Source: Pelatocladus maniniholoensis HA4357-MV3 (GTDB taxonomy: Bacteria; Cyanobacteriota; Cyanobacteriia; Cyanobacteriales; Nostocaceae). Taken from it: DNA of 40,070 nucleotides. This document shows positions 2,155-37,586 of this stretch, piece by piece (position 1 is the stretch's first letter; every line of letters begins with the position of its first letter). The notes under the pieces are model-generated. The model saw only the letters and a list, made by a program, of their open reading frames with translations. It was not told where the DNA came from and made no database searches. The stretch is from assembly GCA_019359115.1 (NCBI GenBank), contig JAHHHW010000126.1, positions 1-40,070 on the forward strand, given 5' to 3'. The position numbers and the translations under genes were made by a program.

Positions 2155-3153
2155 ATGTTAACGCGTCAGCTGGGAAAAAACGGGCCGAGTATATCAGCAA
2201 TCGGTCTTGGATGTATGGGTATGTCGGATTTCTATGGACCAGCAGATCGAGAAGAAAGTATCGCAACTATTCATGCTGCTCTCGATGCAGGTATAACATT
2301 ACTAGATACTGGTGATTTCTATGGAATGGGTCACAACGAACTGTTATTGCATGAAGCACTGACAGGACGACGACGGGAAGATTTTTTTATTGCAGTCAAA
2401 TTTGGAGCGTTGCGATCGCCTGATGGTAATTTTATCGGTTTTGATGGTCGTCCTCAAGCTGTAAAAACTGCACTTGCCTATACATTACAGCGATTAGGAA
2501 CCGATTATATCGATCTTTATCAACCAGCTCGTCTCGATCCCACAGTGCCGATTGAAGATACAATTGGGGCGATCGCCGAAATGATACAAGCTGGATATAT
2601 TAGATATGTCGGATTGTCCGAAGCAAGTGCAGACACACTGCGACGCGCACATGCAACTCATCCGCTTACCTGGTTGCAAATCGAATACTCACTTCTCAGT
2701 CGTGGAATTGAAAAAGAAATTCTCCCGACTGTGCGAGAATTAGGTATTGGCGTCACCGCTTACGGCGTACTTTCGCGGGGTTTGTTGAGTGGTCATTGGT
2801 CAAAAGATCGCTCCCAAACAGCGCAGGATTTCCGGAGTCATTTACCGCGTTTTTCTGGAGAAAATCTGGATCGGAATTTGTCGCTAGTCGAAGCACTCCG
2901 CAATATTGCAGAAGAACAGAATGCAACTGTCGCACAAGTGGCGATCGCTTGGGTTTTGTCACGAGGTAATGATATCATTCCGTTGATTGGAGCGCGACGT
3001 CCCAATCGCTTAGAAGAAGCGCTCGGTGCAATCAATCTACACCTTACAGATGATGAACTAGCTAAAATTGAAGCAGCAATCCCACCTGATGCAGTAGCTG
3101 GCGATCGCTATGATTCAGGTCAGATGGCGATGTTGGATAGTGAAAAGAGTTGA
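2155..3153 (+). CDS. Aldo/keto reductase (AKR13-like)
   Basis: Cytosolic NADPH-dependent carbonyl reductase of the aldo/keto reductase superfamily, 332 residues as a single TIM barrel. Seen: N-terminal strand [20 protein letters not shown], the DTGDFYG segment with catalytic Asp51 and Tyr56, Lys82 in AVKFG, and the C-terminal cofactor part with [15 protein letters not shown]. The fourth tetrad position, usually His in a YxHR motif, is Ala125 (YQPAR), a variant that may be shared by a subgroup. The start at 2155 is chosen because GGAG lies at 2143-2146, eight bases upstream; the frame is open further upstream to 2104 but that part has no family similarity. Substrate unknown. Monocistronic, followed directly by tandem repeats. 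Confidence 0.9.
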
Positions 3154-3165
3154 GTTTTATTTGAC

Positions 3166-3211
3166 GGGGATTGGGGATTGGGGATTGGGGATTGGGGATT
3201 GGGGATTGGGG
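3166..3211. repeat. GGGGATT heptamer tandem repeat (STRR)
   Basis: Six perfect GGGGATT units followed by GGGG. This matches the short tandemly repeated repetitive sequences known from Nostoc and Anabaena. It lies just after the aldo/keto reductase stop codon. Confidence 0.95.
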
Positions 3212-8338: not shown

Positions 8339-9913
8339 GTGCCATCCATGCCTCTGTCGCGTATCGTTACGCTTATTGTCGGTCTAATTGTCATTTTGGG
8401 ACTTTGCTTATGGCTGATTGACTCTCTGTCACGGCTTTATTGGCAATTGTCCTATTCTCCTTTTTTGGGCAATTTGCTGCTGTTTTTGATCATTGTCTTA
8501 ATTGGTGCTTTAATCGCTGCCTTTGTATATTATGTACTAGTACTTCAGACTGGCGAAGAGCGATCGCGCCGAGCCAAAAGACAACGCCAACGAGTGCAAA
8601 TTCCCGCCGCCAAATCAGAAGCAGCTTCTTCGACTCTGCAAGCTGTCAAGCAACAAGTAGCCCAAATTCAAGATGAAGTTGCACGCCAAGCTTTACTAAG
8701 TAAATCGCGAGAAATTGAAGCGAACCTCAAACGAGGTGAAATTCAAGTCGTGGTGTTTGGTACTGGTAGCGCTGGCAAAACTTCTTTAGTAAATGCGATT
8801 TTGGGACGGATGGTGGGCAGAGTAGACGCACCCATGGGAACCACCACAGTCGGAGAAACCTATTGTATGGGCTTAAGGGGTCTAGAGCGCAAGATTTTAA
8901 TTACCGATACGCCGGGAATTTTAGAAGCGGGGATTGCGGGTACGGAGAGAGAACAATTAGCCAGAGAACTAGCCACCTCGGCAGATTTACTTTTATTTGT
9001 AGTCGATAATGACCTCAGACGTTCAGAATACGAACCTTTACGAGCCTTGGCAGAAATTGGCAAACGCTCTTTATTGGTATTGAATAAAACAGATTTATAC
9101 ACAGAAGACGATAAAGAAGCCATTCTCGCCAGATTGCGTCAAAGAGTGCGGGGGTTTATTGCTGCTGGCGATGTCGTGGCAATTTCTGCTAATCCTCAAC
9201 CTGCACAGCTAGAAACTGGCGAAATGTTTAAACCAGAGCCAGAAATTATACCCTTATTGCGGCGAATGGCAGCAATTTTACGGGCAGAAGGTGAAGATTT
9301 AGTTGCAGATAATATTCTCTTGCAATCGCTGCGGCTGGGAGAAGAAGCTCGAAAACTAATCGATAGCCAGCGTCGCCGCCAAGCTGACAAGATTGTAGAA
9401 CGATTTCAATGGATTAGTGCAGGTGTGGTATCAGTTACACCATTGCCAATGGTAGATTTACTAGCAACGGCTGCTGTCAACGCCCAAATGGTAGTAGAAA
9501 TTGGCAGAGTTTACGGCTGTGAATTAAATATGGAACGGGGACGGGAATTGGCGTTGTCTCTGGCGAAGACAATTGCTGGTTTAGGGATTGTCAAGGGTGC
9601 GTTGGAGTTACTTTCTACGGCCTTGCAGCTCAATGTCGGTACTTTTATTATTGGTAGAGCAATTCAAGGTGTGACAGCTGCGTACCTGACACGTATCGCT
9701 GGTAAAAGCTTTATTGAATATTTCCGCAATGATCAAGATTGGGGCGATGGCGGGATGACGGAGGTTGTACAACGTCAGTTTCAACTTAATCGCCGCGATG
9801 AATTTATGAAGGCGTTTATCCAGGAAGCGATCGCACGAGTTGTCAGACCCTTACAAAGAAATGCTGAACTTGTGGAAGAAGAGGAAGAAAAAAGACTAGA
9901 AAGCGGAGATTAG
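8339..9913 (+). CDS. Membrane-associated GTPase with DUF697 domain
   Basis: A 524-residue Era/YcjF-like GTPase. Two transmembrane helices (about 8-28 and 44-67) precede a coiled basic segment and the G domain: P loop GTGSAGKTS (141-149), DTPG (190-193) and NKTD (249-252). The C-terminal part (about 370-470) is a DUF697 region with hydrophobic helices and small-residue turns. It should bind and hydrolyse GTP at a membrane, probably the plasma or thylakoid membrane; its substrate process is not known. The frame opens at GTG 8339; the ATG at 8348 three codons later is equally plausible. The C-terminus is strongly acidic (EEEEEKRLE). No terminator is evident. Confidence 0.9.
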   Translation: MPSMPLSRIVTLIVGLIVILGLCLWLIDSLSRLYWQLSYSPFLGNLLLFLIIVLIGALIAAFVYYVLVLQTGEERSRRAKRQRQRVQIPAAKSEAASSTLQAVKQQVAQIQDEVARQALLSKSREIEANLKRGEIQVVVFGTGSAGKTSLVNAILGRMVGRVDAPMGTTTVGETYCMGLRGLERKILITDTPGILEAGIAGTEREQLARELATSADLLLFVVDNDLRRSEYEPLRALAEIGKRSLLVLNKTDLYTEDDKEAILARLRQRVRGFIAAGDVVAISANPQPAQLETGEMFKPEPEIIPLLRRMAAILRAEGEDLVADNILLQSLRLGEEARKLIDSQRRRQADKIVERFQWISAGVVSVTPLPMVDLLATAAVNAQMVVEIGRVYGCELNMERGRELALSLAKTIAGLGIVKGALELLSTALQLNVGTFIIGRAIQGVTAAYLTRIAGKSFIEYFRNDQDWGDGGMTEVVQRQFQLNRRDEFMKAFIQEAIARVVRPLQRNAELVEEEEEKRLESGD

Positions 9914-29909: not shown

Positions 29910-31571
29910 GTGAGTACTCGCTGGGCGTTCTTAGTTGGAGTTAACCGCTACGTAGATTCTGGAATTAGTGATTTAAATTTTTGCGTGAATGATGTTTTGG
30001 TGCTAGGACAAACCCTGGAGTCACTTGGCTATGAAGTAGTTACTCTCCATGATCAACAAGATTGGAATCATCCACGCTTTCCTAATCGTAACAATGTAGA
30101 AGCAAGACTCAAGCACGTTTGTGATGCTGTGCAACCAGATGATTTACTTTGGGTGCATTTTGCTTGTCATGGGACTGTGGTGAAGACAGCAGCGAATCAC
30201 ACAGAACCTATTTTAATTACTTGTGATACGCAGATAAATTTATTAGAACAGCAAGCGCTCCCTGTGGCCAAGGTTGAGCAGTATATGAAAGCTAGTCAAG
30301 CGCGACGCTTTTTATTAACCTTAGATGCTTGTCACACTGGTTTAGATATTGGTAGAGATTTATTAGCTGATCCAGAGTTTATTCATAATGTTTACGAACA
30401 GGCTGAGGGTTTTGCACTCATTGCAGCTAGTACTGCTCAACAAAGGGCTTTTGAATGGCGAGAAAAACAGCATGGTGTGTTTACCTATCATTTATTAGAA
30501 GCGCTAAGTGGTCAAGCGGATCGTGCAGGTAAGAATTTTGTCACCGTCGATGATTTGAAAAATCATGTGTTGGATGGTTTGCGGCGTTGGGGTGTGAAAA
30601 ATGACATTTTGCAAGAGCCGACAGCTCGTACGGAAGGATTAGGCGATATGATTTTGGCTGATTATCGGAAGCCACAATCACAAAATTCTCTACCAGCTTT
30701 ACGAGAGTTTGAGTTTGAAGTGGTGACGGTGCGGATAGAAAACAAAGGGTTCTTTAATCCCCGTAAAGAACTGATTTCTAATCGTCGTGTAGGAACTGCA
30801 AAATACTTTGTCGAAGATTTGGGACAAGGTATAGGTTTGGAGATGGTGGAAATTCCCGGTGGTAGATTTACAATGGGCGCACCGATAGAAGAAAGTGATA
30901 GCCGTGACAGCGAAAGACCGCAACATCGAGTCATCATTTCTACTTTTTTTATGGGTAAATATCCTATCACTCAAGCCCAATGGCGAGCCGTAGCCGCATT
31001 ACCAAAAATTAATCGTGATTTAAAACCTGATCCATCACACTTTAAAGGTGATAACCGACCTGTAGAATGTGTGTCTTGGTATGATGCAGTCGAATTTTGT
31101 GCCAGACTTTCTTTAAAAACAGGACGAGAATATCGACTACCAAGTGAAGCTGAGTGGGAATATGCTTGTCGTGCTGGGACAACAACACCGTTTTATTTTG
31201 GTGAAACGATTACAACTGATTTAGCAAATTATAACGGTAACTATATCTATGGTGATGCACCTAAAGGAAAGTATCGAGAAGAAACAACGCCTGTAGGATA
31301 TTTTCCGCCTAATGCCTTTGGTTTATATGATATGCACGGCAATGTTTGGGAATTGTGTGCAGATGATTGGCATGATAACTATGCTGGAGCGCCAACTGAT
31401 GGCAGTGCATGGCAAAGTGATAATAAAAAATTGGTGCTGCGGGGCGGTTCCTGGGGCAACGATCCTGAAGACTGCCGGTCTGCGTGTCGCGGCAACAGCA
31501 TTAGGGCGGAGCGCGACGGCATCGGCAGCCCCCTCGGTTTTCGTGTTGTCTGTGCTGTCGGGAGGACTTAA
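29910..31571 (+). CDS. Caspase-like (peptidase C14) protein with FGE-sulfatase / C-type lectin domain
   Basis: A 553-residue bacterial caspase homologue (orthocaspase). The N-terminal peptidase C14 domain (about 5-250) has the catalytic dyad His87 in HFACHGT and Cys141 in LDACHTG. The C-terminal part (about 308-550) is a formylglycine-generating-enzyme-type domain: EIPGGRFTMGAP, WRAVAALP, PVECVSWYDAVEFCARLS, YRLPSEAEWEYACRAGT, LYDMHGNVWELCADDW and RGGSWGNDP. FGE-type folds in this setting usually serve as binding, not catalytic, domains. The start is GTG 29910 with GGGGAG at 29895-29900. The last 40 codons show the pattern of a diversity-generating retroelement variable region (see separate entry). 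Its protease partner or target and its reverse transcriptase are not in the window. Confidence 0.93.
   Translation: MSTRWAFLVGVNRYVDSGISDLNFCVNDVLVLGQTLESLGYEVVTLHDQQDWNHPRFPNRNNVEARLKHVCDAVQPDDLLWVHFACHGTVVKTAANHTEPILITCDTQINLLEQQALPVAKVEQYMKASQARRFLLTLDACHTGLDIGRDLLADPEFIHNVYEQAEGFALIAASTAQQRAFEWREKQHGVFTYHLLEALSGQADRAGKNFVTVDDLKNHVLDGLRRWGVKNDILQEPTARTEGLGDMILADYRKPQSQNSLPALREFEFEVVTVRIENKGFFNPRKELISNRRVGTAKYFVEDLGQGIGLEMVEIPGGRFTMGAPIEESDSRDSERPQHRVIISTFFMGKYPITQAQWRAVAALPKINRDLKPDPSHFKGDNRPVECVSWYDAVEFCARLSLKTGREYRLPSEAEWEYACRAGTTTPFYFGETITTDLANYNGNYIYGDAPKGKYREETTPVGYFPPNAFGLYDMHGNVWELCADDWHDNYAGAPTDGSAWQSDNKKLVLRGGSWGNDPEDCRSACRGNSIRAERDGIGSPLGFRVVCAVGRT
31438..31567 (+). other. Probable DGR variable region (VR) at the 3' end of the caspase-FGE gene
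   Basis: The last codons after LRGGSW consist of fixed positions (CRSA, R, RAER, LGFRVVCA) alternating with clusters GND, ED, C, GNSI and DGIGSP. Nearly all codons in the clusters end in C or T, as expected if they derive from AAC/AAT codons in a template by A-to-N mutagenesis. The stretch is clearly more GC-rich than the gene. The conserved end CTCGGTTTTCGTGTTG and GTCGGGAGG would be the homing sequence. FGE/C-type lectin ends are the classical target of these elements in cyanobacteria. Confidence 0.75.
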
Positions 31572-31664
31572 TAGCCCTTTATACTTTTGCTCTTTTGCCC
31601 TCTGCTCTTTCTTCTTTTCCCTTTGCCTTTTTTGCGAGCGCAGCGAGCTCGATTTATTTTTATA

Positions 31665-31752: not shown

Positions 31753-31941
31753 TATCGGGTTGCATTGTGAATGTATCGGGTTGCATTACGATTGTATCGG
31801 GTTGCATTACGATTGCATCGAGTTACATTGCGATTGTATCGAGTCGCATTGCGATTGTATCGAGTCGCATTGCGATTGCATCGAGTCGCATTGCGATTGT
31901 ATCGAGTCGCATTGCGATTGCATCGAGTCGCATTGCGATTG
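31753..31941. repeat. 21-bp minisatellite, nine copies (array 2)
   Basis: Units start every 21 bp from 31753 to 31921, with a partial tenth from 31942. The early ones begin TATCGGGTTGCATT, the later ones TATCGAGTCGCATT or CATCGAGTCGCATT and end GCGATTG. The unit is the reverse complement of the array 1 unit at about 16 of 21 positions. No spacers, so it is not a CRISPR array. Confidence 0.95.
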
Positions 31942-31985
31942 TATTAAGTTACCAGGCAAATGGTACATATTAATTATGCCGAAGG

Positions 31986-32402: not shown

Positions 32403-32405
32403 AAT

Positions 32406-33926
32406 TCAACGACTGTAGAGTTGTGTCATCTCCAACAATCTTTGACTCAACTCTGATGTCAGTAAATCAGAACTGGTGTAACGCCAACGCCAATTACCAG
32501 CATTCACACTTGGATCGTTCATTCTGCCACTGTTATCTAAACCCAAAATATCTTGCAGGGGAAGAATCGCTAAATCAGCGACAGAAGCTAAAGCTGTGCG
32601 AATGAATTCCCAATTGATTTCCAGAACTTCGTCTGGCGAATCATAACCCAGATATTTAGCAATCATTTGCTTTTCTTCAGGTTTAGCTCCATCTTGCCAC
32701 CAACCGAGTGTAGTTTCGTTATCGTGAGTACCTGGATAGACGACACTATTTTGAATGTAATGGTGGGGTAGGTAAGCATTATCTGAACCACCACCGAAGG
32801 CAAATTGCAAGATTCGCATTCCTGGAAAATCAAAGCGATCGCGCAAGTATTCTACTTCTGGTGTGATGATTCCTAAATCTTCTGCCATCACGGGCAAACT
32901 ATCCAAGGTTGTTTCTAGAGTTTCAAAAAATTCCACTCCTGGTGCTTTCACCCATTCACCATTGATAGCTGTTTCTTCCCCAGCAGGTACGCGCCAGTAA
33001 GCTTCAAAACCCCGGAAGTGATCAATTCTGACAATATCTACATATTGTAATGTGGCTCGGAAACGTTCAATCCACCAGGCAAAGTTGGTTTGCTGCAATT
33101 TCTCCCAATCGTAAACTGGATTCCCCCACAACTGCCCAGTAGCGCTAAAATAATCTGGTGGCACACCCGCTATATAAGCAGGTTCGAGGGTTTGTGAGTC
33201 GAGTTGAAAAATATCAGGATTTGCCCACACATCAGAACTGTTGTGACAAACGTAAATAGAAATATCCCCAACAATTTGGATGTTTTTGTCGTTGGCGTAG
33301 GCACGTAGTTGTAACCACTGTTGAAAAAATTTAAATTGTAAGAATTTATGGTATTGTATTTCGTTGTTGAGATCTTCAGTCGCGGCTTGTAAGGCACTGG
33401 GTTCACGGCGAGCGATCGCACTTTCCCACTGACTCCACGCTTTGCCTTCGTTGGCTTCTAGTAGCGCCATAAACAAGACGTAATCGTTGAGCCAAGCCGA
33501 TTGCATCTGACAAAATTGTTCGTACTCACGGTTTGATTTTTCCGTCAGGGAATGCTGGAAGCTTTCATAAGCAAGACGGAGAATTTTCATCTTGTGAGGA
33601 ATTACCGCATCGAAATTAACTCGATTGAGGTTATCTGCTGCACTTTTTGGTGGCAGCGTCAATTCCTCTTGCGATAGTAAATTCTCTTGCACCAACTGCT
33701 CTAGACTGATCAGCAGTGGATTTCCAGCAAAAGCACTAAAATTCATTGTATAGGGTGAATGTTCATAACCCGTGGGTCCCAATGGCAAAATTTGCCAAAG
33801 TCTTTGACCACTCCTCTGCAAAAAATCCACAAACTCGTAAGCTGAATGACCTAAATCACCTATGCCAAATTGACTAGGCAGACAAGTAGGATGTAACAAA
33901 ATTCCGCTTGCTCTTTGAAAACTCAT
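32406..33926 (-). CDS. malQ: 4-alpha-glucanotransferase (amylomaltase, GH77)
   Basis: Transfers alpha-1,4-glucan segments between maltodextrins, releasing glucose, in glycogen breakdown and maltose use. The 506-residue product begins SGILLHPTCLPSQFGIGDLG, a hallmark of GH77, and contains the catalytic regions VDIVRIDHFRGFEAYW (nucleophile Asp), VMAEDLGIITPEVEYL (acid/base Glu) and YPGTHDNETTLGWW (transition-state Asp). Length is typical. A GTG precedes the ATG by one codon; the ATG at 33926 has GAGGA about nine bases upstream. Transcribed divergently from treS with 110 bp between, so the two may share control. Confidence 0.96.
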   Translation of the reverse strand: MSFQRASGILLHPTCLPSQFGIGDLGHSAYEFVDFLQRSGQRLWQILPLGPTGYEHSPYTMNFSAFAGNPLLISLEQLVQENLLSQEELTLPPKSAADNLNRVNFDAVIPHKMKILRLAYESFQHSLTEKSNREYEQFCQMQSAWLNDYVLFMALLEANEGKAWSQWESAIARREPSALQAATEDLNNEIQYHKFLQFKFFQQWLQLRAYANDKNIQIVGDISIYVCHNSSDVWANPDIFQLDSQTLEPAYIAGVPPDYFSATGQLWGNPVYDWEKLQQTNFAWWIERFRATLQYVDIVRIDHFRGFEAYWRVPAGEETAINGEWVKAPGVEFFETLETTLDSLPVMAEDLGIITPEVEYLRDRFDFPGMRILQFAFGGGSDNAYLPHHYIQNSVVYPGTHDNETTLGWWQDGAKPEEKQMIAKYLGYDSPDEVLEINWEFIRTALASVADLAILPLQDILGLDNSGRMNDPSVNAGNWRWRYTSSDLLTSELSQRLLEMTQLYSR

Positions 33927-34036
33927 CACAAAATCCTCGGAAATTCGGTATCAGGTAATACAAAAAGGTCTAAAATTTCAAAAAAAGCTGCGAGTCCCCT
34001 TGTACAATAACTTATTGCCAATAGGTTGTATAAACT

Positions 34037-37000
34037 ATGCAAAATCCGATTTTGAAGGACGATCCGCTTTGGTTTAAAGATGCTGTAATCTACGAAGTAC
34101 CTGTACGTGCCTTTGCCGATAGCGATAGCGATGGCATTGGCGATTTTTGTGGGTTAACACAAAAGTTAGATTACTTGCAAGATTTGGGAGTCACCGCAGT
34201 TTGGGTACTGCCCTTTTTCCCCTCGCCATTACGCGATGATGGCTATGACATTTCAGATTACACTAGTGTCAACCCCATATACGGTAATCTAGAAGACTTT
34301 GAGGCTTTTTTAACTGCTGCCCATGAACGCGGTATTCGTGTCATTATTGAGTTAATCATTAATCACACTTCTGATCAACATCCTTGGTTTCAACGGGCGC
34401 GGCGATCGCCTGTGGGCAGTTCAGCCAGAAATTTTTACGTTTGGAGTGACACCCCTGAAAAGTATCAAGACACGCGGATCATCTTCAAGGATTTTGAAAC
34501 CTCTAACTGGACGTGGGACCCTGTAGCAAAGGCATACTATTGGCATCGCTTTTATTCTCACCAACCAGATTTAAACTTTGAACACCCAGAACTACAGCAA
34601 GCACTATTTAATGTTGTTGATTTTTGGTTAGAGATGGGCGTGGATGGACTGCGTTTAGATGCAGTACCTTATCTTTATGAACGCGAGGGAACCAACTGTG
34701 AGAACCTACCAGAAACTCACGAGTTCTTAAAGAAATTGCGCCGCCATGTAGACGACAATTTCCCTAACCGGATGTTACTGGCAGAAGCAAATCAGTGGCC
34801 AGAAGATGCGGTGGAGTATTACGGTCAAGGGGATGAGTGCCAAATGGATTTTCACTTCCCCCTGATGCCACGTCTGTATATGGCGTTACATATGGAAGAT
34901 AGCTTCCCCATAATTGACATTTTGCAGCAGACGCCACAAATCCCCGATAACTGCCAGTGGGCGCTATTTTTACGTAACCACGATGAACTGACTTTAGAAA
35001 TGGTCAGTGATGAAGACCGTGATTACATGTATAAAGTCTACGCCCAAGATCCCCAAGCCCGGATCAACTTGGGTATTCGTCGCCGTCTGGGGCCGTTGAT
35101 GGGTAATAACCGTCGCCGGGTTGAGTTGATGAATGCTTTGTTAATGTCTTTGCCAGGTACACCAGTGTTGTATTACGGTGATGAGATTGGCATGGGAGAC
35201 AATATTTATTTGGGCGATCGCAATGGTGTACGTACTCCGATGCAGTGGAGTCCTGATAGAAACGGAGGGTTTAGTAGTGCCAATCCCCAAAGACTTTATG
35301 CTCCCTTGATTGTAGACCCAGAATATCACTACGAAGCAGTCAACGTCGAAGCACAACGGGCAAACCCAAATTCCCTGTGGTGGTGGACAAAACGACTCAT
35401 TGCGACTAGAGGACGCTATCAGGCTTTTGGTCGCGGGACATTTGAATTTTTGTATCCAGAAAACCGCAAAGTATTAGCCTTTACCCGCAACTACAACGAT
35501 GAACACATTCTAGTTGTGGCGAATCTCTCACGGTTTGTACAGAGTGTAGAATTAGATTTGTCTGCCTTTAATGGTATGGTTCCGGTAGAAATCTTTGGTC
35601 GCAGTGCTTTTCCGATAATTAGCGACTCTCCTTATTTCCTGAGCTTGGGACCCCATGCATTCTACTGGTTTACATTACAATTGCAACCCAGCTTTACTTG
35701 TCCAATTCGCACTCCCAACCAAATACCTAAACTCATAGTGAGTGGCAAATGGCAAAATATTTTTGCTAAAGGTGAAGCGAGGACAGCACTTGAAACTATA
35801 TTGCCAGATTACCTGTGTAGTTGTGCTTGGTTCGATGGCAAAACACGCATCATCCAAGCTACTCACATCACAGAAGCAATTCCTGTAAATCACGAAGACG
35901 ACACCCAAGCATATATTATTTTATTGCGGGTGGACTACACAGAAGGCGATCCCCAAACTTACGTTCTCACCCTTGCTTACGAGACAGATGGTATTGGTAA
36001 CGAGCGCTTCAGCACTCACACTGAACAAGTGGTAGCTCAAATTTACGTCCAGGGTAAACAAGAAACTGGAATTTTATTTGATGCTTTAAGACAAGAAGAC
36101 TTTTTGAGTATTCCCTTAGATGCGATCGCTCATCATCATACCTTCATGGGTATGGAGGGTAAATTAGTCGGAACAACCACAGAAGATTTCCCTGAAATTA
36201 TCACTCAAGTCAACGATAAAAGTAGTAATGTTTCCCTGGAAGCGCATTTACTTAAAGGAGAACATACTAACACAGGCATTATTTATGGCGATCGCCTGAT
36301 TTGCAAAATCTTCCGTAAAGTCGAAGCGGGTATCAACCCTGATCTAGAGATTGGTCGTTTTCTCACCAAAACTGCAATCAACAAAAGCACACCCCAGTTA
36401 GAACATTTAGCCCCCGTTGCTGGTGCATTAGAATACCACCATAAAGGATCTGCACCTATGACATTGGGGATTTTGCGAAAATATATCCCTGAGATTCGCG
36501 ATACTTGGTCTTATTCCTTGGACAGCCTGCGTGACTTTTTTGAGCAAGTTTTGCCAAAATACGTAGATATAGCTGATATTGAGCTACCATCTAACTTGTT
36601 GCAAGCAGCGCTGGAAATTCCTATTCCGGAAATGGCTCAAGAGTTCATGGGCAATTACTTAGTAGTGACTGAGTTGCTAGGACAGCGTACTGCGGAACTG
36701 CATATAGCTTTAGCATCTGATGTTGAAAATGTCAACTTCGCACCAGAGCCATTTTCTTCGTTCTACCAGCGCTCAATTTACCAATATATGCGGAATCAGG
36801 CAGGACAAACATTATTGCTGTTGAATAAACATTTAATGCAACTGCCTAATGATGTGCAACCTGTAGCAAAATTGGTACTTAATCAACGTGAGTTGATTTT
36901 GGCACGCTTTCAAGAGATTTTGAATCACAAAATCACTGCGATGCGGATTCGTTGTCATGGCAATTATTCCTTAGAGGAAGTTTTGTATACGGGTAAAGAT

Positions 37001-37414
37001 TTCATCATCATTGATTTTGAAGGTGACTCGAATCGTGCTTTAAGTGAACGCCGGATGAAGCGATCGCCCCTACGTGATGTTGCTTCCATGATCGGATCTT
37101 TCTACTATGCCAGCCGCGTTGGTTTGCTGAATGAGAAAGAAAGCGGTATACTGCGTCCCGATGAACTACCATTAGCAGAAAACTGGCAACGATTCTTTTT
37201 CTGTTGGTCTAGTGTGGCCTTCTTAAAATCCTACCTGGCAACAGCAGATCATGCAGCTTTTATACCTAAGCATCCTAGAGAGTTAAAAGTCTTACTAGAT
37301 GCTTTCTTGTTAGAGAAAGTTATCCTTGAGTTAGACTACGAACTCAAAAACCGTCCGGATTGGATTGAGATTCCTTTGCAGCGAATTTTGGAATTGTTGC
37401 AAAACTCGAAGTAA
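34037..37414 (+). CDS. treS: Trehalose synthase fused to a maltokinase-like domain
   Basis: A 1125-residue fusion. Residues 1-550 are a GH13_16 maltose alpha-D-glucosyltransferase that interconverts maltose and trehalose; nucleophile Asp208 (GLRLDAV), acid/base Glu250 (LLAEANQWP) and Asp316 (RNHDEL) are present. Residues 560-1125 are a maltokinase (Pep2/Mak)-like module with N-terminal cap and kinase fold, ending with DFIIIDFEGDSNRALSERRMKRSPLRD. In active maltokinases the loop reads HGDxHLGQ; here it is HGNYSLEEV, so the catalytic Asp is Asn976 and two further positions change. The kinase half may be inactive or serve regulation, or this may be a lineage-wide variant. Divergent from malQ, consistent with joint maltose/trehalose metabolism. 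Confidence 0.94.
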   Translation: MQNPILKDDPLWFKDAVIYEVPVRAFADSDSDGIGDFCGLTQKLDYLQDLGVTAVWVLPFFPSPLRDDGYDISDYTSVNPIYGNLEDFEAFLTAAHERGIRVIIELIINHTSDQHPWFQRARRSPVGSSARNFYVWSDTPEKYQDTRIIFKDFETSNWTWDPVAKAYYWHRFYSHQPDLNFEHPELQQALFNVVDFWLEMGVDGLRLDAVPYLYEREGTNCENLPETHEFLKKLRRHVDDNFPNRMLLAEANQWPEDAVEYYGQGDECQMDFHFPLMPRLYMALHMEDSFPIIDILQQTPQIPDNCQWALFLRNHDELTLEMVSDEDRDYMYKVYAQDPQARINLGIRRRLGPLMGNNRRRVELMNALLMSLPGTPVLYYGDEIGMGDNIYLGDRNGVRTPMQWSPDRNGGFSSANPQRLYAPLIVDPEYHYEAVNVEAQRANPNSLWWWTKRLIATRGRYQAFGRGTFEFLYPENRKVLAFTRNYNDEHILVVANLSRFVQSVELDLSAFNGMVPVEIFGRSAFPIISDSPYFLSLGPHAFYWFTLQLQPSFTCPIRTPNQIPKLIVSGKWQNIFAKGEARTALETILPDYLCSCAWFDGKTRIIQATHITEAIPVNHEDDTQAYIILLRVDYTEGDPQTYVLTLAYETDGIGNERFSTHTEQVVAQIYVQGKQETGILFDALRQEDFLSIPLDAIAHHHTFMGMEGKLVGTTTEDFPEIITQVNDKSSNVSLEAHLLKGEHTNTGIIYGDRLICKIFRKVEAGINPDLEIGRFLTKTAINKSTPQLEHLAPVAGALEYHHKGSAPMTLGILRKYIPEIRDTWSYSLDSLRDFFEQVLPKYVDIADIELPSNLLQAALEIPIPEMAQEFMGNYLVVTELLGQRTAELHIALASDVENVNFAPEPFSSFYQRSIYQYMRNQAGQTLLLLNKHLMQLPNDVQPVAKLVLNQRELILARFQEILNHKITAMRIRCHGNYSLEEVLYTGKDFIIIDFEGDSNRALSERRMKRSPLRDVASMIGSFYYASRVGLLNEKESGILRPDELPLAENWQRFFFCWSSVAFLKSYLATADHAAFIPKHPRELKVLLDAFLLEKVILELDYELKNRPDWIEIPLQRILELLQNSK

Positions 37415-37467
37415 TTGGGTTGATGTTGAGCAACGTCTTTCTTGTGTTTGCTATTGATGACTAATGG

Positions 37468-37510
37468 TTAGTAGTTAGTTAGTGGTTAACAACCAACTAC
37501 TAACTATTAA
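37468..37510. repeat. TTAGTAGTT inverted repeat after treS
   Basis: TTAGTAGTT plus a 7-base bulge plus GGTT pairs with AACC and AACTACTAA. Possible terminator-like hairpin 54 bp after the treS stop, without a U run. Confidence 0.6.
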
Positions 37511-37586
37511 CTAATTAGGGTTTGCTAAAAAAGTGATGAAAAGCTAGAGGAAGATTAGTTTATTTATAAGAAGGGCTGGCTGAAAA

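Follow-up and report, generated by a model that had tools for sequence, protein, structure and literature searches.

The end of a cyanobacterial caspase-FGE gene probably carries a past DGR-written variable region that is now fixed

Our data suggest that the last 132 coding bases of a caspase-FGE fusion gene in the cyanobacterium Pelatocladus maniniholoensis HA4357-MV3 form a variable region (VR) that was written in the past by a diversity-generating retroelement (DGR), and that this VR is now most likely a fixed variant in this strain. We put the probability of this reading at roughly 75%; fixation is its most likely present state because the only DGR reverse transcriptase (RT) found in the genome is truncated, and because the genome's own template repeat (TR) belongs to another gene. 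The gene lies in the window that we analyzed, a stretch of 40,070 nucleotides that is the complete contig G000:C126 in a draft assembly of 6.7 Mb. Its features are collected in Table 1.

Table 1 Features of the caspase-FGE gene and its 3′ flank in the window
Feature	Position	Strand	Details
Caspase-FGE fusion gene	29910..31571	+	553 aa, GTG start, without internal stop
Caspase (Peptidase_C14) domain, aa 3-204	29916..30521	+	Pfam E=3.8e-17; PADLOC caspase model E=4.9e-11
FGE-sulfatase / C-type-lectin-like domain, aa 311-547	30840..31550	+	Pfam E=5e-58
Probable DGR variable region (VR)	31437..31568	+	18 template-A sites changed in 13 codons (1 silent) versus the G170 TR; codon count taken from the plain TR alignment
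3′ end of VR, common to TRs, no changed template A	31536..31568	+	TR alignment
3′ flank, starting TAGCCCTTTAtACTTTT..., then a short GC-rich inverted repeat GCGAGCGCAGCGAGCTCG	31572..31660	+	Alignments; repeat found by eye

From their sequence, we presume that the Peptidase_C14 domain of the encoded protein is an effector and the FGE-sulfatase domain a sensor; both the Pfam and the PADLOC models point to a caspase-type effector of the kind found in EAD/caspase conflict systems. TvpA of Treponema denticola (2y3c), a DGR variable protein of solved structure, aligns to residues 406-548 of the window protein (E=1.4e-20); unlike the window protein, the TvpA chain gives no caspase match, and it comes from a different organism group. 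In a Pfam domain search of this protein, no EAD scored at E≤0.001. The genome holds 11 FGE matches in all, and its other FGE proteins include those on C85 and C35. Among the best 80 matches of a GTDB scan, from which records very near the source genome are possibly missing, no full-length relative exceeded 41% identity in its best segment.

The VR lies at the 3′ end of the C-type-lectin/FGE-type domain, as in DGR variable proteins. The original prediction had placed its start at 31438, and the location held while the exact base did not, since TR homology begins at 31437, one base earlier. The sequence islands that had been singled out (GGSW, CRSA, RAER and GFRVVCA) are all present within the last 44 codons of the gene, and the composition claimed for this region was borne out by our counts. 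The GC content of 31437-31571 is 64.4% compared with 41.7% in the remainder of the gene, 33 of its 44 codons have C or T in third position (266/509 in the gene body; 0/466 equal-length stretches of the gene body reach this level), and A occupies 18% of codon positions 1 and 2, against 29% in the gene body. The unchanged 3′ end of the VR is a candidate IMH-type priming end, a role for which known DGRs give the model. The start of the 3′ flank is common to the VR ends of other target genes, and this flank is possibly a target-recognition element, or merely a co-duplicated flank. Downstream of the gene we also observed a tandem array with a 21-bp unit at 31753-31944 (9.1 copies, 91% matches), and similar arrays lie near both relatives of the gene in genome G001 (C193 and C438).

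The VR differs chiefly at template adenines when compared with TRs of related genomes, as opposed to a TR of its own genome. In plain alignments, to TRs chosen by likeness to the VR or by position, the best fit was the G170 TR (18/34 A sites and 9/98 non-A sites differ, p=4e-7), alongside the TRs of G139 (16/32 A, 12/100 non-A, p=2e-5) and G002 (18/33 A, 8/93 non-A, with a 6-nt gap, p=1.8e-7). The changes are also strongly directional: 18 A-to-N changes against 1 reverse in the best fit, 17-19 template-A changes against 1 reverse in each of four TR rows, and ratios of 2.5:1 or less in all of the remaining 40 rows (self match excluded). The adenine-aware comparison covered 47 stretches, of which seven came from earlier work and 40 were drawn from more than 100 rows matched by R1, a covariance model of a conserved element behind the templates (one of these 40, G001:C65, is without its TR); this comparison rewards template adenines, and its p-values therefore lean in favor of a fit. 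The bias toward A sites and the direction of the changes show that the window VR carries a DGR signature. The exact template was not among the TRs examined, as the three nearest (G170, G139 and G002) each show 8 to 12 non-A differences.

Ends resembling that of the window gene occur in all four genomes examined from the genus (4/4). One of these, G002, carries a DGR on a 4785-bp contig, with a target end containing a VR, Avd (Pfam bAvd), RT (RVT_1) and a TR in which AAC codons abound. With these components found in the genus and the differences from TRs falling on template adenines, the identification of the window end as a DGR VR stands. Substitutions in close relatives that ignore template adenines, which the prediction had named as contrary evidence, did not appear: relatives differ here, mostly at template-A sites. 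Across the family, Nostocaceae, we found a VR-like match in 88/217 genomes, a count in which at most three candidates were scored per genome and plain alignment penalized adenine changes. At G018:C37:8885-9019 (L074 2497-2631), a sequence in template position and followed by the R1 element has adenine sites that look mutated as in a VR (12:9 against the window), which raises the question of whether it is an overwritten or decayed template.

The prediction had further proposed that this region is mutated in trans at present, from a template identical to it outside adenines and located near an RT and Avd. Our searches of the genome did not sustain this proposal. Neither DNA searches nor R1 detected a cognate TR of the window VR in the assembly, and a protein search at E≤1 returned a single DGR RT match, on C25, where residues 1-141 alone are left. 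The first outcome that the prediction had named as contrary, a genome lacking template and RT, was thus observed, in that a cognate TR and an intact RT both failed to appear. The Avd match upstream of this truncated RT contains a TAA, and the FGE match of the C25 DGR target is broken across two frames. At the lesion, about 157 bp occupy the place of about 1.18 kb in G003, which retains the remaining RT and the TR. The DNA flanking the lesion is 94% identical to G003 and syntenic with it, so that the break cannot be put down to the contig ending there. Comparison with the intact locus of G003, a sister species, thus indicates that the C25 RT was truncated by a deletion that removed its TR too. 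The sole RVT_1 match in the genome, on C53 and below the curated cut-off, reads as the remnant of a group II intron RT and not as a DGR RT.

R1 found one template element in the genome, on the minus strand at C143:41581-41726 (L057 5582-5727). Beside it, on the same strand, lies a second caspase-FGE gene (593 aa) with a VR, and the TR follows about 200 bp on (C143:41734-42170, L057 5735-6171). This TR and its VR differ at 6/24 A and 0/100 non-A sites by adenine-aware scoring of the shared repeat; plain alignment gives 1/98 non-A differences, at the last base. We found no Avd or RT match beside the pair, which reads as an orphan VR-TR pair, rewritten cleanly at A only and belonging to another gene than the window's. 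The C143 TR fits the window VR poorly, falling outside the three best fits by plain and the five best by adenine-aware comparison. The DNA search of the genome gave one further strong copy of the window VR, on C23, where it terminates a TIR-FGE gene.

Two relatives of the gene in G001, a sister genome, bear on its history. The first, on C193, is syntenic with the window downstream (32404-37512, 94% identical) and consists of two open reading frames, one encoding a caspase with a C-terminal EAD9 domain and the other EAD9 with FGE, both EAD9 domains scoring above the Pfam cut-off; the shared EAD9 links a variable sensor to a caspase effector. The second, on C438, is a fused paralogue of the window gene with 90% DNA identity that loses frame at a 19-base gap. 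In 100-base bins, identity between the window and C438 is 89-97% in the FGE part and 82% in the bin adjoining the VR, falls to 62% within the VR and returns to 83% beyond it; for C193 the bins give 84-94%, with 80% inside the VR and 88% beyond it. The window VR fits long-form templates (those of G170 and G139). The C438 VR fits the G003 template (21/33 A and 8/89 non-A sites differ), and its template family clearly differs, by these alignments, from that of the window. The C193 VR fits the shorter TR of G002 (12/33 A, 4/93 non-A); it may derive from a common template that drifted rather than from a replaced one, since its framework and the gene body have diverged to about the same degree. Gene conversion between paralogues may also lie behind the VR difference in either C438 or C193.

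G001 has no DGR-like RT by our search (best match E 2.4e-7, 31% identity). On the minus strand of its contig C207 (L063 about 8835-9050) we found a relative of the C25-type TR, the 5′ part of which is cut by other DNA that, on reading, resembles a group II intron at its 3′ terminus. This looks like a second, independent route of DGR loss.

We propose that past mutagenic retrohoming of a cyanobacterial DGR produced the window VR. RT and Avd would have copied template RNA with errors at adenines, and the resulting cDNA would have replaced the 3′ terminus of a distant target gene, whose product would join an FGE/C-type-lectin-like sensor with variable positions to an N-terminal caspase effector. 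The writer would then have been lost, its RT truncated by deletion and its TR gone, with the remaining template serving another gene and the window VR frozen thereafter. Loss of the writer in this strain is most likely, and the main doubt is an unassembled copy, as a draft in 167 contigs can be missing a plasmid or a collapsed repeat. Plasmids fall outside the scope of the completeness figures, and DGR loci can break assemblies, as the left end of the G002 contig falls inside its target gene. The clean C143 pair, which differs at adenines alone, implies that RT activity in this lineage is recent or still ongoing. We nonetheless consider it unlikely that the strain harbors an intact RT, Avd and cognate TR, absent from the assembly, that act on the window gene in trans today: our searches returned remnants (the truncated C25 RT and the C53 fragment) and a single template, and the C25 lesion is internal to its contig.

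The A-site signature could also have reached the window gene through gene conversion, by recombining with a paralogue that a DGR had written, in which case the gene was never itself a target of retrohoming. This route is improbable, if slightly less so than present-day activity. FGE ends occur in large paralogous families, as the 11 matches in this genome and the VR-like matches across the family illustrate, and different target genes have the 3′ flank in common; yet the drop in identity to G001:C438 is confined to the VR, and conversion tracts would often reach further upstream. Far less probable than either is that the gene simply ends in a GC-rich FGE domain of the usual kind, with no DGR history. 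Alignments show that GG.W and GFR-type islands are retained in FGE proteins that lack a DGR, too, but the A-site bias and its direction contradict such an origin, and RT, Avd and TR adjoin such ends in the genus. Past DGR writing followed by fixation is the reading that we prefer. Building on it, we tentatively suggest, at rather less than even odds, that DGR templates of different families have overwritten one variable site in turn, a landing pad shared among them in this lineage of caspase-sensor genes, and that this strain then lost the writer and kept the chosen receptor. The suggestion comes from the near-identical bodies of the window gene and G001:C438, whose VRs fit different TR families, and from the fit of the C193 VR to a third, shorter TR.

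The element modeled by R1 is conserved, with a length of about 145 nt, 3′ of each of the eight TRs that we compared (alignment A3, including C143). It has 36 predicted base pairs, 14 of them with compensatory changes on both sides (4.7 in shuffles), and 98.6% of its cells are paired (91.0% in shuffles); 0/500 shuffles were as high in either measure, and the structure was derived from the counted sequences themselves, which favors it over slid controls. Rfam at gathering gave no matches in the two TR loci searched. Within the family, R1 matched 122/217 genomes, under stricter filters. A DGR-type RT, counted as a match to one RT at E≤1e-40 with truncated copies included and at most nine candidates scored per genome, is present in 56/217, of which 53 also have R1, and 92/217 have neither. 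Since 69 of the 122 R1 genomes are without an RT match at this threshold, templates without a recognized RT look common in the family, within the limits of these filters. On the minus strand of G001:C65 (L241 about 3100-3200), a kinase gene continues directly into the template element, of which the 3′ half is present, and the FGE part, VR and TR are absent. PMC12691664 reports adenine-specific hypermutation in Nostoc punctiforme DGR targets and describes regions up- and downstream of the TR as predicted parts of the DGR ribonucleoprotein; the element is probably such a part.

Caspase-type remote DGR targets, including one without a nearby RT, are already published. Vallota-Eastman et al. 2020 (PMC7517822) describe orthocaspase domains among cyanobacterial DGR variable proteins, 76 remote DGR targets in cyanobacteria, and one target, all3226, in which remnants of TR-VR homology persist without an RT nearby. 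The window gene resembles those remote targets in its C-terminal CLec/FGE-type domain, 3′ VR, orthocaspase-type N-terminus and distance from a DGR. Unlike for the targets described there, we found no cognate TR of its VR anywhere in the assembly, the only DGR RT found in the genome is truncated, and a paralogue (G001:C438) holds a VR of another template family. New here is the history of decay and template replacement that we propose for such a target; judging by titles and abstract openings, we found no published report of template replacement at one target.

PMC10907252 and PMC7159879 propose that DGR-diversified FGE/CLec domains act in conflict systems that use EAD adaptors, where they would be sensors or effectors. 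The genes studied here resemble these sensors of multicellular bacteria in combining an FGE sensor with a VR, caspase or TIR effectors and EAD adaptors, the last matched by the EAD9 domains of both G001:C193 partners. In contrast to those systems, caspase and FGE are joined directly in the window protein, with no EAD9 found, and the eight scanned neighbors of its gene include no MoxR or vWA family. The window thus places a DGR-diversified sensor and a caspase in one chain, where G001 divides the pair between two proteins that both bear EAD9, and this split pair supports the sensor-effector model for a function that we infer. The broken DGR of this strain and the intact syntenic DGR of G003 form a natural before-and-after pair for what becomes of receptors once a mutator is lost. 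If the shared landing pad is real, a specificity acquired through DGR writing would have become fixed in the genome, and templates without an RT, traced by the conserved RNA element, would reveal such fixation across the family.
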